A DNA stretch of 64,000 nucleotides from Planctomycetota bacterium (GTDB lineage Bacteria > Planctomycetota > Phycisphaerae > Phycisphaerales > UBA1924), in assembly GCA_024280755.1 (NCBI GenBank), contig JAJRPN010000006.1, positions 62,001 to 126,000 on the forward strand, written 5' to 3'. Positions 666 through 45,897 of this stretch are shown one piece after another. The number at the start of each line of letters is the position of its first letter. Position 1 is the stretch's first letter. Below the pieces are notes generated by a model. It saw only the letters and a list, made by a program, of their open reading frames with translations. It did not search any database and was not told the origin of the DNA. A program made the translations under genes and the position numbers.

Positions 666-3197
666 ATGTTCAGGTTCAGTTTTTTACAATCAATCAAGAC
701 CAAGCTGTGCATGATGTTCATGATTGCGGGCGCGATCCCCATGATTGTCTCGATGGCTGTGATTAATGATCGCTCTGAAAAGGCTTTTATAGCCAAGGCT
801 GAAGAATCGCTTGTTGAGAGTGCAACGACACGCGAGAGCATGCTCAATGATCATGTCGAATCGCTCAAAACGAGCGCAAAGATACTCTCGAATCAGATAG
901 CAATCAGTAAGTTTATCACTAATCGTGCAGACAACGATCCAGATGCAGGCGAATACTTTGAAGCTGCCTGGAACGAAGTGGTTGAGTTCCAAAGCGCACA
1001 TTGGGGTTCAGTCCATCATGTGTTCCTTACAGATATTTCTGGCACGGTCATTTTGAGTCCTGCCCATGCAGGGATGGATATACCTGCTCATGAAACAGTT
1101 TCTGTTGGGATGCAAAGCCCGCACCTCGGCGATTCGATCGCAGATTCAAAGTTCTTTCTTAAAGCCCTCAGCGGGGTGTATGTGACTGATTTCTTTGGAT
1201 TTGTTGAGCGTGACCATTATCACCAGCTGGTGTTGCACCCGGTTTTCGATGACGACGGACAAGCGATTGGTGTGATCGCGATGGAGGTCACGATCGAGAG
1301 CATTGAGGCTTTGATGCGTGATCAGTTCTCGATCGGAGAAACCGGCAAGATCTACATCGCGACACATCAAGGGCTGCGAGTTGTTCATCGGAAGGAAGAT
1401 TTTCAGCCAGAGCCTATTGTCGGCACTGGGGTTTTACAGGCGATTGATTCACAAGAACCAGTCAGCGGCTGGTATGAACCCGAACCGGGACGGAAAGTCT
1501 TTGGGGTGTATCAGGCTTCACGGATTTATCCTTGGGTTGTTTGTGTCGAGGTTGACCGCGATGAGCTCTTTGCGCCCGTTCGTGCGCAACAGCGATTGTT
1601 CTTCGCCGTAATGTTGGCAAGCTTAAGCGTCTTTGGGGTCATGGTGTATAGTGTGGGGCGGATGTTCTGGAAGCCCTTGCAATCGATCGCTGCATCGACC
1701 AATCGCGTCGCAGATGGAGATCTTTGGCATGAGATCCCAACCACACGCAAAGATGAAATCGGTCAGCTCGAATCAGCAGTAAACGCAATGCGTATTGCCA
1801 TGAAACAACAGATCGATCGTCTAGACTCGCTTATCGCAGAGCGAACCGTGGAACTTGAAGAGGTGAGCAGCGAGTTTAAACACGCTGCCGAGCATGATTT
1901 GCTCACAGAGTTAGCAAACCGATCTGTACTCGAAGCGATGCTCGAACAAGAACTCGAGAAGTACAAAGACGATTCGGGGCATCTGATCTCGGTGCTGTTC
2001 TTCGACTTTGATCGCTTTAAGGTGGTCAATGATTCGCTTGGGCACGCGACCGGCGACGCGTTGCTCTGTTCGATCGCGGATCGATTCCAGAGCGAGTTGC
2101 GAGATTCAGATCTGGCTGCTCGGTTTGGTGGCGACGAGTTTGTGGTCGTGCTTTCGCCAGTCGAAACCGAAGGGCATGCGCACCAGGCAGCCGCTCGATT
2201 ACTCAAGGTCTTCGAAGAGCCTCATGTGATTGATGGGCATCGGATCACATCAACGGCAAGCATCGGGCTGGTGATCGCTGACTCAAGATACACATCTGCA
2301 GCGGAGATGATCCGCGATGCGGATGCTGCGATGTACCAGGCAAAGCTCGCGGGCAAGGGGCAGGTCATCGCGTTTGATGAAGAGATGTTCGAGGATGCAA
2401 AGCGGAGATTGCGTCTTGAAGAAAACATGAACGATGCGATCGCAAACGATGAGCTCCGTGTGATGTATCAGCCGATCATCGGGATGGATGATATGAGTGT
2501 TGTTGGGTTTGAAGCCCTCATGCGATGGGAGCATCCAGAGCTTGGGATGATCCGCCCAGATCATTTTATTCCGATCGCAGAAGATACCGGGCAGATTGTC
2601 GAACTCGGCGCGTGGATTCTCAAGGAATCCATCGAGCAAATCGTCCGATGGGATCAAGAGTTCAGTCTCGACGCCACGCTCTCGATCAATGTCAATGTCG
2701 CCAAACGCCAACTGATCCACCCGGAGTTTCTTGGGATGGTCGAACAGGTTCTCAAAGACACCGGGCTCGCGCCGCATCGGCTCAAAATTGAAATTACCGA
2801 ATCGACCGCGATCGATCCACGCCATGATATGAGCCTGGTTATTAAGCGGATTCGTGAACTCGGAGTCTTGATCGCTATGGATGACTTTGGAACCGGGCAC
2901 TCTTCGTTGAGTCTGCTTCATCAGTTCGATTTTGACATCCTCAAGATCGATCAGAGCTTCGTGCAAGGTATGGAAGACTCACGCGAGATGAGCGCGGTGC
3001 TTCATGCGATTATCGCTCTGGCACAAAACACGGGCATGAAGGTGGTCGCTGAGGGTGCAGAGACAGAGACGCAGGTTGCGTGTTTGATCTCACACGAATG
3101 TGACATGATCCAAGGCTACTACTTCTCGCGTCCACTCCCATCCAAAGAAGCGGGCGAGTTTCTTGCAGAGCCTTTCGATATTCGTCGGGCAGCCTAG
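666..3197 (+). CDS. Membrane c-di-GMP cyclase/phosphodiesterase (Cache-HAMP-GGDEF-EAL)
   Basis: Bifunctional-type cyclic-di-GMP enzyme, 843 residues. Order: N-terminal membrane segment, periplasmic Cache-like sensor (about 30-290), second membrane segment, HAMP (WKPLQSIAASTNRVADGD), GGDEF domain with intact GGDEF near residue 488, and EAL domain with EAL near 616. An RxxD inhibitory site (RDSD) sits five residues before GGDEF, implying product feedback. The EAL half keeps EITEST, DDFGTGHSSLSLL, KIDQSFV and AEGAET, so both halves look active. A longer frame with GTG at 633 exists, but ATG at 666 has GGAG five bases upstream and is preferred. The TAG stop (3195-3197) lies inside the CTAG end of the adjoining repeat element. 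Confidence 0.93.
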   Translation: MFRFSFLQSIKTKLCMMFMIAGAIPMIVSMAVINDRSEKAFIAKAEESLVESATTRESMLNDHVESLKTSAKILSNQIAISKFITNRADNDPDAGEYFEAAWNEVVEFQSAHWGSVHHVFLTDISGTVILSPAHAGMDIPAHETVSVGMQSPHLGDSIADSKFFLKALSGVYVTDFFGFVERDHYHQLVLHPVFDDDGQAIGVIAMEVTIESIEALMRDQFSIGETGKIYIATHQGLRVVHRKEDFQPEPIVGTGVLQAIDSQEPVSGWYEPEPGRKVFGVYQASRIYPWVVCVEVDRDELFAPVRAQQRLFFAVMLASLSVFGVMVYSVGRMFWKPLQSIAASTNRVADGDLWHEIPTTRKDEIGQLESAVNAMRIAMKQQIDRLDSLIAERTVELEEVSSEFKHAAEHDLLTELANRSVLEAMLEQELEKYKDDSGHLISVLFFDFDRFKVVNDSLGHATGDALLCSIADRFQSELRDSDLAARFGGDEFVVVLSPVETEGHAHQAAARLLKVFEEPHVIDGHRITSTASIGLVIADSRYTSAAEMIRDADAAMYQAKLAGKGQVIAFDEEMFEDAKRRLRLEENMNDAIANDELRVMYQPIIGMDDMSVVGFEALMRWEHPELGMIRPDHFIPIAEDTGQIVELGAWILKESIEQIVRWDQEFSLDATLSINVNVAKRQLIHPEFLGMVEQVLKDTGLAPHRLKIEITESTAIDPRHDMSLVIKRIRELGVLIAMDDFGTGHSSLSLLHQFDFDILKIDQSFVQGMEDSREMSAVLHAIIALAQNTGMKVVAEGAETETQVACLISHECDMIQGYYFSRPLPSKEAGEFLAEPFDIRRAA

Positions 3198-3455
3198 GCC
3201 CTGTCTGATGACTCATGTTTTTCGACTATTCGCCTCCCCCGGGCCTCCGGGGGAGGCGCCGATCGAAGTGAGGCGGAGGGGGTCTTCTCTTTCTTCTCTT
3301 CCCCCATTGCCTATTCCCTATTGCCCATTGCCTTCTTCAAGACCCCTTCCGTCTGCTGCGCAGCCACAACCGCCCTATGGGTGCTCCCCCGGAAGCCCGG
3401 GGGAGGCAAAAAGAAAGCGTCCTGTGTGGGGAATGAGCCGTCAGACACCACCTAG
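3194..3455 (+). repeat. Palindromic element A (L arm, spacer, R arm, CTAG ends)
   Basis: A 262-base element. Its outer ends are imperfect inverted repeats beginning CTAGGCCCTGTCTGAT and ending GTCAGACACCACCTAG. Inside, the L arm near 3231-3290 is a hairpin (CCTCCCCC, GGGCCTCC, GGGGGAGG) followed by ATCGAAGTGAGGCGGAGG. The pyrimidine-rich spacer contains heptad-like ATTGCC repeats. The R arm near 3338-3410 has CTGCTGCGCAG and a second GGGGGAGG hairpin with core GGAAGCCC. It carries no gene. It is in the same orientation as element B at 4822-5068, and the two bracket the S41 peptidase gene. Confidence 0.85.
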
Positions 3456-4821: not shown

Positions 4822-5068
4822 CTAGGCCGTGTCTGACGGCTCAGTTCCATACAAGAACGCCATCCTTTTCTCCTCCCCCGGGCTTCCGGGGGAGGTGCCG
4901 ATCGAAGTGAGGCGGAGGGGGACTTCTCTTTCTTCTCTTCCCCATTGCCTCTTCCCTATTGCCCATTGCCTTCTTCAAGACCCCCTCCGTCTGCTGCGCA
5001 GCTGCCTCCCCCGGAGGCCCGGGGGAGGAGAGTGTGTGATCAAACACAAGCCGTCAGGCACGGCCTAG
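4822..5068 (+). repeat. Palindromic element B (complete, CTAG ends)
   Basis: A 247-base copy of the element at 3194-3455 with better-preserved outer inverted repeats: CTAGGCCGTGTCTGACGGC at the left and GCCGTCAGGCACGGCCTAG at the right. The L-arm hairpin core is GGGCTTCC and the R-arm core is GGAGGCCC, the reverse of the assignment in element A. The spacer (CTTCTCTTTCTTCTCTTCCC and an ATTGCC-rich run) is nearly identical to that of A. No coding frame is supported inside. Confidence 0.85.
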
Positions 5069-20076: not shown

Positions 20077-20115
20077 GTCGGCGGTTCCTTGGGGTTGGGT
20101 TTGAGATGAAGAGTA

Positions 20116-20167
20116 GACCCCCTCCGCCCTTCGGGCACCTCCCCCGTCAGGACGGGGGAGGGACAAA
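20116..20167 (+). repeat. Solitary R-type arm of the palindromic family
   Basis: GACCCCCTCCGCC, a small CCC-TT-CGGG hairpin, then CACCTCCCCC, core GTCAGGAC and GGGGGAGGGACAAAG. The core equals that of the R arm beyond the DUF559 gene (20786-20845). It lies between the fahA start and a tandem-repeat tract. Confidence 0.8.
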
Positions 20168-20200: not shown

Positions 20201-20279
20201 CAATCTCCCCATCCCTCCCCATCCCTCCCCATCCCTCCCCATCCCTCCCCATCCTTCCCCATCCTTCCTCATCCTTTCC
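20201..20279 (+). repeat. 10-bp tandem repeat (ATCCCTCCCC)
   Basis: About seven to eight head-to-tail copies; the first ones are exact and the last three decay (ATCCTTCCCC, ATCCTTCCTC, ATCCTTTCCG). It fills the space between the solitary R arm and the L arm of the DUF559 element. Confidence 0.9.
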
Positions 20280-20288
20280 GGCGTTTTT

Positions 20289-20845
20289 CCTTGTCCCTCC
20301 CCCGTCCTGACGGGGGAGGTGTCGAACGAAGTGAGACGGAGGGGGTCTTCTTCCCGCATCAAAATAATCTGATACCATCACAATCATGGAGGATCCTAAA
20401 GAATTTCGAGTATCGAAGCAGCCGACTCCGCGGGCAAGGAGCCAAGCGAAGACTCTTCGCACAAATCAATCGCCGCCAGAAGGGTTGTTGTGGTGGATAC
20501 TCAGACGGAATCAAATCATGGGACAGCGATTTCGTCGGCAATCGCCGATCGGGGTTTACATCGCAGATTTCTATTGCCACAATCTTCGGCTCGTGATCGA
20601 AGTTGATGGCAAAACGCATCAACAAAGACAACTCGTACATGACAAAAAGCGAGATGTGTGGATGCAATCAAAGGGGATCTTTGTTGTGCGTGTGCAGGCT
20701 AGGGATGTCTTTGAGAATCTTGAAGGCGTACAGGGGATGATTGAACAGGTTGTTCGGCGGCGGCTTGAGGAGCAAGTTGAACAATGAAGACCCCCTCCGT
20801 CGGCTTCGCCGCCACCTCCCCCGTCAGGACGGGGGAGGGACAAGG
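20289..20845 (+). mobile_element. Candidate DUF559-encoding palindromic element
   Basis: A 557-base unit: L arm (20289-20350), single DUF559 gene (20386-20787), R arm (20786-20845). Read inward, both arms share CCTTGTCCCTCCCCC, core GTCCTGAC, GGGGGAGGTG and, at the inner edge, GACGGAGGGGGTCTTC. They differ only in the middle (TCGAACGAAGTGA in L, a GGC-TTC-GCC mini-hairpin in R). The R arm supplies the last two bases of the gene's TGA stop. Arms of the same architecture without a gene occur at six other loci in the window. That the gene mobilises the arms is inference. Confidence 0.65.
20386..20787 (+). CDS. DUF559-domain (Vsr-like) endonuclease
   Basis: 133 residues of the DUF559 family, related in fold to very-short-patch-repair and other PD-(D/E)XK nucleases. 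Seen: a basic N-terminus, TNQSPPEGLLWWILRRNQ, then MGQRFRRQSPIGVYIADFYC and LRLVIEVDGKTHQQR, in which the ADFYC aspartate and the E-x-D of VIEVDG are the expected metal ligands. The HDKKRDVWMQSKGIFVVRV segment closes the fold. The gene is enclosed by inverted palindromic arms and its stop codon is part of one of them. No good ribosome site precedes the ATG. Cellular target and role are unknown; a mobility or repeat-processing nuclease is the contextual inference. Confidence 0.85.
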   Translation: MEDPKEFRVSKQPTPRARSQAKTLRTNQSPPEGLLWWILRRNQIMGQRFRRQSPIGVYIADFYCHNLRLVIEVDGKTHQQRQLVHDKKRDVWMQSKGIFVVRVQARDVFENLEGVQGMIEQVVRRRLEEQVEQ

Positions 20846-20865: not shown

Positions 20866-20932
20866 AAGGAAGTGTTTAGAAGGAAGTGCTTAAAGGAAGT
20901 GTTTAAAGGAAGTGTTTAAAAAGAACTGTTTA
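20866..20932 (+). repeat. 13-15-bp tandem repeat at the end of the PfkB gene
   Basis: Four close copies of AAGGAAGTGTTTAA plus a decayed fifth (AGAACTGTTTAG), directly after the R arm of the DUF559 element. The last copy contains the stop codon of the PfkB-family gene on the other strand. Confidence 0.8.
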
Positions 20933-22862: not shown

Positions 22863-22871
22863 CTCCCTATG

Positions 22872-23030
22872 CCCTCCCCCGCGCCCTCGCGGGGGAGGTG
22901 TCGAACGAGGTGAGACGGAGGGGGGTCTTGCTTGCTGGTTGGTTGGGTATTGATTGTTGTAATGTGATGGAAGAAAGACCCCTCCGTCACGCTGGGCGTG
23001 CCACCTCCCCGCGAGGGCGCGGGGAGGGGC
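22872..23030 (+). repeat. Palindromic element D
   Basis: The L arm (CCTCCCCC, core GCGCCCTCGC, GGGGGAGGTG, TCGAACGAGGTGAGACGGAG) and R arm (CCTCCGTC, CACGC-TGG-GCGTG mini-hairpin, CACCTCCCC, core GCGAGGGCGC, GGGGAGGGG) are separated by about 60 bases without coding content. The two cores are exact complements of each other and unlike those of other loci. It fills the gap between rdgB and mqnE. Confidence 0.85.
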
Positions 23031-23090
23031 AAGAGGGAATCGGATTTCAGAGATAACTGAAAACTCACCCGCGGCGATCTATCATTACGC

Positions 23091-24500
23091 ATGACGACGC
23101 TTACTCCAACCCACTCCTCATCCATCCCGAACCTTGACCCTGCGATCGAAGCGATCCGTGCTAAGGTGACTGCGGGTATTCGACTGAGCCTCGACGATGG
23201 CAAGGTGCTCTACGAAACGGATGATATCTGGAGCGTGCTCGAACTGGCCAAGCTCGTCCGCGATCGGATGCACCCGGGCGTGGCGTACTACAACATCAAC
23301 CGTCATCTCAACTACTCCAATGTCTGTGCGCTCTCGTGCAAGTTCTGCGAGTTCGCGCGCAAGCAAGGCGACGAGGGCGAGTACACGCGGGATCTTGAGT
23401 ACATCAAGGAGCAAGGCCGCAAGGCTGTGAAATCTGGGGCGACGGAGTTCCACATTGTGGGTGGGTTGAATCCGTACCTACCTTTCGAGTATTACACCGA
23501 CATGCTCAAAGCCCTGCGCGAAGTCGCGCCGCAGGTTCACCTCAAAGCATTCACGGCTGTCGAACTCGTCCACCTGGCACGCATCGCCAAGGTCTACAAA
23601 AGGGAAGATCCAAAGATCGGTGTGCGTTGGGTGCTTGAGAAACTCAAAGAAGCCGGGCTCGGGTCGCTGCCCGGAGGCGGCGCAGAGGTCTTCGACGAAC
23701 GCGTCCACAAAGAAGCATTCAAAACCAAAATCGGCGCCCACGAATGGCTCGATGTGCATCTGGTCGCTCACGAACTCGGGCTCAACACCAACTGCACGAT
23801 GTTGTATGGGCATGTCGATAAACAAGACGAACGGCTGCGCCACATGGAGATCCTTCGGCGATCCCAAGACCAAGCCTTGCATCGCTTGGGGTACGAAAGC
23901 GACCCGGATGGGTACATTGCACAAGGTGTTGTCGAGTCTGAACAGATCACGGCCCCGGTGATCACGCTCAACAAAGCGGGCGTGAAGCTGCCGACGCCTG
24001 ATGGAGTTTTTTTCCAACGAGCCGCGACCGTGAGGGAGCGGTCTTCTCTTGAATGTCAATCAATAAGACCGCTCCCTCACGGTCGCGGCTCGTCAGAGAA
24101 GACTCGTATTCGTGGCGGGTACTACCAAACGATCACGCCTTTGCCGTTCTTTCCTGATGGTTCTGATCTCGAAGACCTGCCCGGGCCGACGGGTTTGGAG
24201 AACCTGCGAACACTGGCGATCACACGATTGATGCTCGACAACTTCCCGCATGTGAAGTCATTTTGGATCATGCAGAGTTTGCCGATGGCGCAGTTGATGC
24301 TTGAGTCGGGAGCCGACGACATCGACGGCACTGTTGTGTGGTACGACATTACCAAAGCAGTTGGCGAGGGTACACATCAAGAAACCACCGAGCTTGATTT
24401 GAAGCGTGCGATTATTGAAGCCGGGTACGAGCCGGTGGAGAGGGACACGCTGTATCGGCGGGTCGATCGTGATGGGAGCAGGTGGTGGGTAAGCAAGTAG
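23091..24500 (+). CDS. mqnE: Aminofutalosine synthase (radical SAM), with in-frame palindrome insertion
   Basis: 469 residues. First radical-SAM step of futalosine-dependent menaquinone synthesis, joining 3-[(1-carboxyvinyl)oxy]benzoate with an adenosyl radical. Motifs: YYNINRHLNYSNVCALSCKF with the CxxxCxxC cluster ligands (CALSCKFC), FHIVGGLNP, VHLKAFTAVE, GSLPGGGAEVF and NCTMLYGH. Most MqnE proteins pass almost directly from the LRELQD-like helix to the FIPL strand. Here about 80 residues intervene, and codons 310-334 are exactly one copy of a 75-base perfect palindrome (24018-24092). The reading frame is restored and downstream motifs (ITRLMLDNFPHVKSFWIM, ADDIDGTV) are intact, so the protein is probably functional. 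Confidence 0.92.
   Translation: MTTLTPTHSSSIPNLDPAIEAIRAKVTAGIRLSLDDGKVLYETDDIWSVLELAKLVRDRMHPGVAYYNINRHLNYSNVCALSCKFCEFARKQGDEGEYTRDLEYIKEQGRKAVKSGATEFHIVGGLNPYLPFEYYTDMLKALREVAPQVHLKAFTAVELVHLARIAKVYKREDPKIGVRWVLEKLKEAGLGSLPGGGAEVFDERVHKEAFKTKIGAHEWLDVHLVAHELGLNTNCTMLYGHVDKQDERLRHMEILRRSQDQALHRLGYESDPDGYIAQGVVESEQITAPVITLNKAGVKLPTPDGVFFQRAATVRERSSLECQSIRPLPHGRGSSEKTRIRGGYYQTITPLPFFPDGSDLEDLPGPTGLENLRTLAITRLMLDNFPHVKSFWIMQSLPMAQLMLESGADDIDGTVVWYDITKAVGEGTHQETTELDLKRAIIEAGYEPVERDTLYRRVDRDGSRWWVSK
24018..24092. repeat. Second palindrome family, copy inside mqnE
   Basis: A 28-bp perfect stem (starts CGAGCCGCGACCGTGAGGGA, ends in GGTCTT) with a 19-base loop; 75 bases in total, so exactly 25 codons. 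It begins on a codon boundary and encodes a peptide containing PLPHGRGS. Related copy at 55551-55627. Confidence 0.92.
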
Positions 24501-31061: not shown

Positions 31062-31210
31062 CCCCTCCCTGCGCCCCGCGGGGAGGGGTCGAACAAAGTG
31101 AGACGGAGGGGTGTCTTTGTACTTCTTCTCTTACTGATACTGATTTTTAAAGATCAAGACACCCCTCCGTCTGCTTCGCAGCCACCTCCCCGCGGGGCGC
31201 AGGGAGGGGC
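31062..31210 (+). repeat. Palindromic element E, upstream of dnaK
   Basis: L arm CCCCTCCC, core TGCGCCCCGC, GGGGAGG, TCGAACAAAGTGAGACGG; R arm CCTCCGTC, CTGC-TTC-GCAG, CCACCTCCCC, core GCGGGGCGCA, GGGAGGGG. The spacer includes CTTCTCTTACTGATACTGA, shared with element F at 34.4 kb. A decayed R-arm remnant follows at about 31245-31300, running into the end of the next gene. With the dnaK leader (30868-31061) this fills the 430-base gap. Confidence 0.85.
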
Positions 31211-34298: not shown

Positions 34299-34513
34299 CC
34301 TTCCCCGGGCTTCGGGGGGGAGGTGGCATGCGAAGCGTGATGGAGGGGCTTTTTTATCCCTCCCTGCGCCCCGCGGGGAGGTGTCGAACGAGGTGAGACG
34401 GAGGGGTGTCTTGGTTTTTCTTCTTCTCTTACTGATACTGACTTCCAAAGACCAAGGCATGCCACCCCTCCGTCTGCTGCGCAGCCACCTCCCCGCGGGG
34501 CGTAGGGAGGGAT
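34299..34513 (+). repeat. Palindromic element F (compound)
   Basis: A partial arm (CCCCGGGCTTCGGGGGGGAGGT) is joined to a full unit. Its L arm is CCTCCC, core TGCGCCCCGC, GGGGAGGTG, TCGAACGAGGTGAGACGG. Its R arm is CCTCCGTC, CTGC-TGC-GCAG, CCACCTCCCC, core GCGGGGCGTA, GGGAGGG. The two cores differ by one base. The spacer is homologous to element E. Together with flanking unique sequence it fills the gap 34127-34583. Confidence 0.82.
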
Positions 34514-45728: not shown

Positions 45729-45897
45729 CTAGGCCGTGTCTGATGGTTCATTCCCCACACAAGGACGCTCTCTTTTCTCCTCCCCCCGGGCTTTCCGGGG
45801 GAGGTGTCCCGAAGGGACGGAGGGGGTCTTGAAGAAGGCAATGGGCAATAGGGAATAGGCAATGGGGAAGAAAGAGAAGCCCGGGGGAGGAGAGTCG
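45729..45897 (-). repeat. Palindromic element C (inverted, truncated)
   Basis: A reverse-orientation relative of elements A and B. The outer end CTAGGCCGTGTCTGATGG at 45729 corresponds to their right end, followed by the R arm (core GGGCTTTCC, CCC-GAA-GGG mini-hairpin) and the ATTGCC-type spacer read backwards. Only CCCGGGGGAGGAGA remains of the L arm, and the second CTAG end is missing. Confidence 0.8.

Follow-up and report, generated by a model that had tools for sequence, protein, structure and literature searches.

RAYTs are the textbook enzymes associated with REP sequences. In the REPIN/RAYT system (REPtron; TnpA-REP, IS200/IS605-like), a low-copy enzyme gene has palindromes on either side and is accompanied by gene-less inverted pairs, and several enzymes may reside in one genome, often with different repeat subfamilies. 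Other palindromic repeats have been described without an enzyme. Holder et al. (2015) reported a G/C-rich intrastrand triplex motif from over 260 bacteria; E. coli K-12 has 23 copies of it, which include five cases of inverted pairs. The accessible part of their report describes no association with mobile elements and names no enzyme, and the word 'nuclease' is absent from its main text (PMC4666352). The CGTC-tagged REPs of Di Nocera et al. (2013) resemble these repeats in being enzyme-less, as the accessible part of that report describes REP dimers without a dedicated transposase (PMC3733652).

The DUF559 nucleases have been described in other contexts. YcjD is a PD-(D/E)XK relative of Vsr, and its profile finds Vsr (PMC1189080); the DUF559 protein VsrA of Caulobacter, which is SOS-linked and forms foci, was interpreted as a mismatch repair enzyme (PMC12907096); and one DUF559 gene has been filed with the EDxHD homing family (PMC9403480). 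YcjD, VsrA and the EDxHD enzyme I-Bth0305I belong to the same nuclease family or superfamily as the protein studied here, but they are presumed repair or homing enzymes, and the accessible parts of these sources describe no link with palindromic arms. Literature searches covering few subscription journals or preprints found no publication that connects palindromic repeats with DUF559 or Vsr. Here we describe a locus at which the two meet, and the association of DUF559 with such arms is as good as certain.

A DUF559 gene between two inverted arms

The window, by which we mean the whole stretch of 64,000 nucleotides that was analysed, contains a 133-residue open reading frame matching the DUF559 profile (PF04480) with an E value of 8.9e-29 and 100 bits against a gathering cut-off of 20.6. 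The gene and its surroundings comprise the following features:

20205..20280, + strand: tandem array of a 10-bp unit (CATCCCTCCC), about 9 nt outside the left arm (sequence reading, self-comparison)
20289..20351, + strand: left arm (sequence reading, self-comparison; hairpin predicted by DNA folding)
20296-20319: palindrome of the left arm (CCTCCCCCGTC/GACGGGGGAGG)
20338-20345: mirror-image purine block of the left arm, GGAGGGGG
20386..20787, + strand: DUF559 (PF04480) nuclease gene, 133 aa (ORF list, Pfam match, alignment)
20786..20845, - strand: right arm, an inverted copy of the left arm with its palindrome at 20815-20838; overlaps the stop codon

From its outer end (CCTTGTC) the left arm passes through the palindrome, an 18-nt spacer and the purine block to its inner end (TCTTC). 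The outer ends of the two arms (20289-20324 and 20810-20845, 36 nt) are complementary at 97% and the inner ends (20335-20350 and 20786-20801, 16 nt) at 100%. From 20786 on, the right arm overlaps the TGA stop codon and supplies its GA. A first-pass annotation of this DNA had already placed a DUF559 gene between inverted arms and attributed the last two bases of its stop codon to the right arm, and the reading frame, the profile match and the arm comparison agree with it on both points. Folded alone as single-stranded DNA, the left arm of the unit gives a predicted hairpin with a z score of -1.28, which is not exceptional against shuffles.

Twelve residues are invariant in a 65-row alignment of DUF559 proteins (E32, W36, Q52, G56, D61, F62, C64, E72, D74, H78, D86 and R89). 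The closest solved chain is 3hrl (E 5.2e-33), followed far behind by the mobile-intron protein 3r3p (E 3.7e-5). The gene is free-standing between two neighbouring open reading frames, with no intron or intein around it, and the genes of the neighbourhood, named by reading their translations alone, are presumably fumarylacetoacetase-, PfkB-, rdgB- and mqnC-like. Regarding a role in defence, PADLOC gave only partial matches, the best of them to DpdF (E 1.5e-7).

Tandem arrays with units of 9-14 bp adjoin the outer arm ends at two of the four DUF559 loci of the genome, at 20205-20280 and 20866-20932 in the window and at 1242-1306 and 1886-1943 of locus L002. They are perhaps the sign of a target preference or the product of nicking and slippage.

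Inverted arms frame DUF559 genes in many bacteria

Stand-alone DUF559 genes mostly lie between two inverted arms, in the loci surveyed across bacteria as well as in the window's phylum. A search of one genome per species returned at least 585 candidate stretches, at least 567 of which were confirmed as DUF559, and the best 80 of these were used; by organism names they cover Proteobacteria, Bacteroidota, Cyanobacteria, Chloroflexota, Myxococcota, candidate phyla and others. The 500 nt upstream of each gene were aligned with the reverse complement of the 500 nt downstream, at a threshold score of 30. Both flanks were available for 66 loci, of which 46 passed, and one of the latter (L132), a run of N, was removed. 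Inverted arms thus frame 45 of 65 DUF559 loci from many bacterial groups, among the best 80 of at least 567, and the other 20 are without an inverted pair at this threshold.

In the window's phylum the proportion is 39 of 43, eight of the 51 loci entered having fallen out for cut contigs; excluded beforehand were L035, which lies at a contig end, and L040-L046, seven loci that are weak matches or belong to very long frames and were armless in a first rough run. In an earlier version of the test, with some cut contigs retained, 42 of 47 passed. Control loci from the same phylum, 30 entered for each class, were framed in 17 of 24 usable cases for RAYT/Y1 transposases and in 1 of 26 for HNH nucleases, and intervals shifted within the many-group loci gave 1 of 356. 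Extending the flanks to 900 nt left the picture in place (many groups 42/61, window's phylum 39/43, RAYT 17/24, HNH 2/26). Inverted repeats therefore frame DUF559 genes with about the regularity seen for RAYTs. The regular position between arms that the first-pass annotation expected of DUF559 genes is found in the window's phylum and well beyond it, its relatives share the association rather than lack it, and its comparison of the nuclease with RAYT is strengthened by the behaviour of the RAYT/Y1 genes in the same test.

The arms are G+C-rich hairpins between genes, and ordinary intergenic hairpins such as terminators might flank a gene by chance. The framing controls contradict this, with inverted arms at only 1 of 26 HNH loci and 1 of 356 shifted intervals, and no arm was flagged as terminator-like between 19500 and 23500; we give this explanation practically no credence.

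At two loci (L020 and L032), the DUF559 reading frame seems to continue into the arm, giving a repeat-encoded C-terminus (PSPQPSP, PSPNPSQREGREA).

The arms have the layout of an intrastrand triplex

Read from the outside towards the gene, an arm has a pyrimidine strand, joined by a short loop to a purine strand, and then, after a spacer, a further purine block. Purine hairpins with a stem of at least 7 and within 260 nt of the gene occur on at least one side of 95 of 110 DUF559 genes (shifted intervals 29/397, HNH 1/26, RAYT 7/24) and on both sides of 67 of 110 (1/397, 0/26 and 2/24, respectively). The purine strand faces the gene in 157 of 162 hairpins, while shifted controls split 13 to 17. 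The inner block is closer to the mirror image of the purine strand in 94 arms and closer to its direct copy in 7 (54 ties). Placed inside the hairpin it fits better in 130 arms, and placed outside in 9 (16 ties); in 71 of 155 arms every position of the mirror block fits. Examples are AGAGGGG followed by GGGGTGT, and AAGGAGGGG followed by GGGGAGGTT.

Such a layout corresponds to an intrastrand triplex whose third strand is antiparallel and made of purines, and the arm sequences are compatible with one. When G positions alone decide the mirror alignment (130 arms from 126 loci), the third base over A-T pairs is A in 48%, T in 44%, C in 5% and G in 3% (n=238). The direct orientation, which 54 arms fit, also yields A 45% and T 31%, with G 12% and C 11% (n=115), so that the A-or-T rule is clearer in the mirror alignment without being exclusive to it. 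A T over A-T is permitted by the purine triplex code as given by Holder et al. (PMC4666352) and would not be expected from mere mirrored duplication.

The sequence feature of the triplex motif (TM), an antiparallel third strand with G.GC and A/T.AT triplets, is present in the arms. TM or PIT repeats also share with them the combination of hairpin and third strand and the occurrence as inverted pairs, and their E. coli copies adjoin a DUF559 gene. They differ in the second loop, as the ITxF search is described with loops of 1-6 nt (PMC4666352) whereas that of the window arms measures 18 nt; short loops are found in other lineages.

The comparison with REPIN/RAYT brings out two differences. The enzyme is a PD-(D/E)XK, Vsr-like DUF559 protein instead of an HUH Y1 transposase, and the arms read are purine hairpins with a mirror purine block and without a GTAG tag adjoining the hairpin. 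Reading the arms of the source genome's DUF559 loci by eye revealed no GTAG next to a hairpin; the single arm at 20115 has one GTAG, at its inner end, and several RAYT loci of the window's phylum show TAGCC in their arms. The DUF559 system is like REPIN/RAYT in kind but without its defining features, the enzyme and the tag. CGTC REPs were also considered as the cognate repeats of DUF559 and find no support in this role; their pattern (CGTCAT..ATNCC, as one regular expression) is not associated with DUF559 flanks (1/67 and 2/43, controls 7/397).

A repeat family of single arms and gene-less pairs

The core palindrome, with up to 3 mismatches, has three matches in the window against none in 100 shuffles, and a looser general arm pattern (CCCCTCCG-N(8-30)-CACCTCCCC) has ten against none. 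Across the source genome, a 3.02-Mb assembly that is 94% complete, the core palindrome occurs at 51 sites with the same tolerance and the general pattern 94 times forward and 124 times in reverse, the reversed control patterns giving no match in either case. The genome-wide search suggested by the first-pass annotation thus finds a repeat family. That annotation had counted gene-less arms with the same architecture at six further loci of the window; the arms are there, but a pattern scan places them at seven sites, four inward-facing pairs and three single arms:

3233..3281, + strand: single left-type arm (pattern scan)
4872..5028, no strand assigned: gene-less inward-facing arm pair, REPIN-like
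20115..20166, - strand: single right-type arm of the core subfamily of the window unit, just upstream of the unit
22873..23027, no strand assigned: gene-less inward-facing arm pair, compared in relatives
31064..31207, no strand assigned: gene-less inward-facing arm pair, TGCGCCCCGCG core
34359..34510, no strand assigned: gene-less inward-facing arm pair, TGCGCCCCGCG / TACGCCCCGCG core
45779..45825, + strand: single left-type arm (pattern scan)

We found 68 arms in 424 kb of the source genome (the window and the C41 and C3 stretches). Neighbouring arms less than 700 nt apart form 31 pairs there, 19 of them inward-facing, and the narrow spacing of inverted doublets that characterises REPINs is present, with gaps of 30-61 nt in 17 of the 19; the remaining two gaps measure 154 nt and 447 nt, the latter being that of the window's DUF559 unit. 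Both arms have an identical hairpin core in 12 of the 19 inward pairs, against 13.5% of random pairs, and whole-arm similarity shows a weak difference (0.796 against 0.766 in random pairs, p 0.066). Single-stranded DNA folding of the pair at 22868-23032 gives a z score of -8.45.

All four DUF559 matches of the source genome adjoin such arms. The genes of the window, L001 and L004 each lie directly between one left and one right arm, and that of L002 lies between two complete tight gene-less pairs, so that the nearest arm shows this gene its outer side. The hairpin core is common or nearly common to both arms at three of the four loci, L001 having two different cores. The other three proteins are 42-54% identical to that of the window (46-59% over the domain segments), so that the gene unit has undergone no recent multiplication; the multi-copy part of the system is the gene-less pairs, while the gene copies are far apart in sequence. 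Over 24 loci taken from six genomes with multiple DUF559 genes, three of which have further such loci, arms that belong to one locus resemble each other more closely than arms from separate loci of a genome do (p 1.1e-6, from 21 against 136 comparisons that are non-independent). Several DUF559 genes thus reside in one genome, often with different arm subfamilies, and two loci of genome G180 share one.

The dispersed pairs and the geometry of the arms bear on a homing-type element, in which DUF559 would break an unoccupied allele and the unit would be copied by homologous repair, the arms being protective or by-products. The mobile-intron protein 3r3p as the next solved relative after 3hrl and the filing of a DUF559 gene with the EDxHD family (PMC9403480) point in this direction. 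Homing, however, generally targets one allele and would not yield dispersed gene-less pairs, and it leaves two-sided arms of fixed polarity unexplained; we find it very improbable.

Repeat load follows DUF559 more closely than RAYT

We scored genomes as palindrome-rich when their hits numbered 10 or more and were no fewer than four times the control plus one. Among 294 genomes drawn evenly from the window's phylum, 26 of 43 with DUF559 (E <= 1e-20) were rich against 19 of 251 without (p 2.5e-14, a statistic that ignores kinship), and the 26 fall in 15 families. Seventeen DUF559 genomes were not rich, ten of which belong to a single family, f50; the arms of this family, where read, are mostly of other purine types that the pattern misses, such as CCCCCTT, CCCCCGC or CCCCTCT. 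A set of 50 DUF559-bearing genomes from many groups contained 38 rich ones, with 2201 palindromes against 59 for the reversed pattern; the set derives from a first list of 60 by dropping 11 and adding one, and the share may be flattered, since seven of the 11 dropped loci were without an inverted pair at threshold. Within the window's genus, genomes with DUF559 (E <= 1e-10) carry more arms than those without (8 against 13 genomes, p 0.001), and among the 13 without, four still hold 10-17 arms and G009 holds 53.

The first-pass annotation had seen in arms moving through DUF559-less genomes an argument against its reading. Palindrome-rich genomes without a match at E <= 1e-20 exist, 19 of 251, and speak in part against it, but some of them hold weaker or partial matches. 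Two of the 19 (G329 and G079) have weaker matches in long frames, and a renewed search of the other 17 found partial matches to DUF559 in three and, in one, a match within a frame of 1762 codons. Five of 22 arm-bearing genomes without a good DUF559 match gave some match at E <= 0.1 when searched again, partial DUF559 in G326, G181 and G254 and long frames in G140 and G009.

The 149 genomes also searched for Y1 transposases allow the two enzymes to be separated. Rich genomes make up 6 of 8 with DUF559 and no RAYT, 4 of 40 with RAYT and no DUF559, 10 of 15 with both and 5 of 86 with neither, and RAYT taken alone has a weak link with richness (14/55 against 11/94, p 0.028). The source genome contains no Y1 (PF01797) match at E <= 1e-10. 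RAYT thus finds no support as the mobiliser of the arms, and the load of repeats tracks DUF559.

These counts also weigh on the possibility that another factor spreads the arms and that DUF559 genes insert into, or are captured between, existing pairs. The 19 rich genomes without DUF559 favour such a passenger role, as does the divergence among the DUF559 genes of a single genome. The strong co-occurrence (26/43 against 19/251) argues against it, RAYT is an insufficient cause, and the arms of one locus match each other; a mere passenger is therefore unlikely.

Occupied and empty sites

The spacer between the two neighbour genes of the window unit measures about 835 nt here and about 83-87 nt in the relatives G009 (about 90% identical) and G013, in both of which the unit is absent from the orthologous site. 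The comparison of empty and filled sites that the first-pass annotation had called for thus finds a unit-free state in two relatives, the others being uninformative because the upstream neighbour was not matched there. The pair at 22873-23027 is present in G000, and G009 shows its left arm before the contig breaks off; the pair is absent at the site in G005, G016, G010, G015 and G013. No clear target-site duplication was found at the two sites compared, the window unit and the pair 22873-23027, whose flanks are at least 10% diverged.

In G014 (L304), the rdgB-mqnC spacer holds another palindrome pair, of the CGACTCGCC...GGCGAGTCG type, where the pair 22873-23027 sits in the window. A different palindromic insert of about 110 nt, with long inverted arms around GACCGCTCCCTCACGGTCGCGGCTC, lies at 24003-24112 of the window, in frame within the mqnC-like open reading frame 23091-24500. 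It is absent in G005, G013 and G010, and G014 and G016 may hold something similar, judging by alignment length.

A probable resident nuclease for a REPIN-like system

We consider it probable that DUF559 is the resident nuclease of a REP/REPIN-like system, comparable to RAYT/REPIN but run by an unrelated nuclease. The sequence basis of this reading, set out above, consists of the framing, the fixed polarity, the triplex-compatible sequence, the matched arms, the gene-less inward pairs, the co-occurrence and the empty site. In such a system, the purine block on the inner side of an arm would serve as the third strand of an intrastrand triplex in single-stranded DNA, supplying a specific shape and register for recognition. 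When the strand is exposed, for example as the lagging strand, DUF559 would recognise the folded arm pair and nick or cut at its base. Its targets would be both its own unit and, in trans, the gene-less pairs, which would thereby be copied, or moved, into further intergenic positions. The gene, like that of a RAYT, would stay at low copy number and the gene-less pairs would be its abundant products. The nicking and the action in trans are, we think, suggested by analogy with REPIN/RAYT as far as described in the accessible parts of the literature (PMC3116915, PMC8266576).

The first-pass annotation had gone further and seen the window unit as the autonomous member of a palindrome-based mobile family. 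The repeat family, the regular presence of DUF559 between arms, the repeat load that tracks it and the empty site support this reading in part; the autonomy of the gene unit is at most putative, its copies in this genome having diverged widely and the gene-less pairs being many.

A broader proposal, to which we give even chances, is that DUF559/YcjD proteins are the missing enzymes of triplex-forming palindromic repeats and define an HUH-independent class of mobile elements, with ends recognised by triplex, pairing of enzyme and repeat subfamilies, and doublets moved in trans. Two orphans may then explain each other, a widespread triplex repeat reported from more than 260 genomes with no enzyme named in the accessible part of the report (PMC4666352) and a widespread nuclease family without an assigned function. 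If true, the REP/REPIN way of life would have evolved around a second type of enzyme, unrelated to the first, and triplex DNA would gain a natural recognition partner in a system as small as a protein of about 130 residues and a DNA arm of about 60 bases.

Triplex repeats and DUF559 in E. coli

Two E. coli records contain a DUF559 gene, which we take to be ycjD, followed by copies of the triplex motif. E. coli strains did not provide clean insertion sites and were set aside as such. Between alx and sstT, the repeat pair is replaced by one hybrid hairpin in two strains read, which is best read as an internal deletion of the pair, and a third strain carries different DNA at this place; at gcvP, the pair and DNA next to it are both absent.

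The collapsed pair is one of the points in favour of DUF559 as a host repair nuclease that cuts the hairpin or triplex obstacles formed by repeats, lies beside them by regulation or joint inheritance, and moves nothing. The kinship with Vsr-like repair enzymes, visible in the YcjD profile finding Vsr (PMC1189080), and the SOS link and foci of Caulobacter VsrA (PMC12907096) fit this role as well. Yet a guard against DNA structures would not need to sit within a pair of arms whose polarity is fixed and which resemble each other more than they do the arms of other DUF559 loci in the genome, nor would it need several genes per genome, often with different arm subfamilies. It is the most credible of the alternatives and still unlikely, and a nuclease resident in its own repeat system remains our preferred reading.

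At about 2950-3000 of the E. coli loci L159 and L160, an unrelated palindrome (CACCTCATTCTGACAA..TTGTCAGAATGAGGTG) stands 5' of the DUF559 gene and overlaps its start region, the triplex repeats being seen only 3' of the gene. In a comparison of loci L165 and L174, about 135 nt beside a triplex repeat are present in one strain and missing in the other, and the two alignments overlap by 21 nt at the junction.
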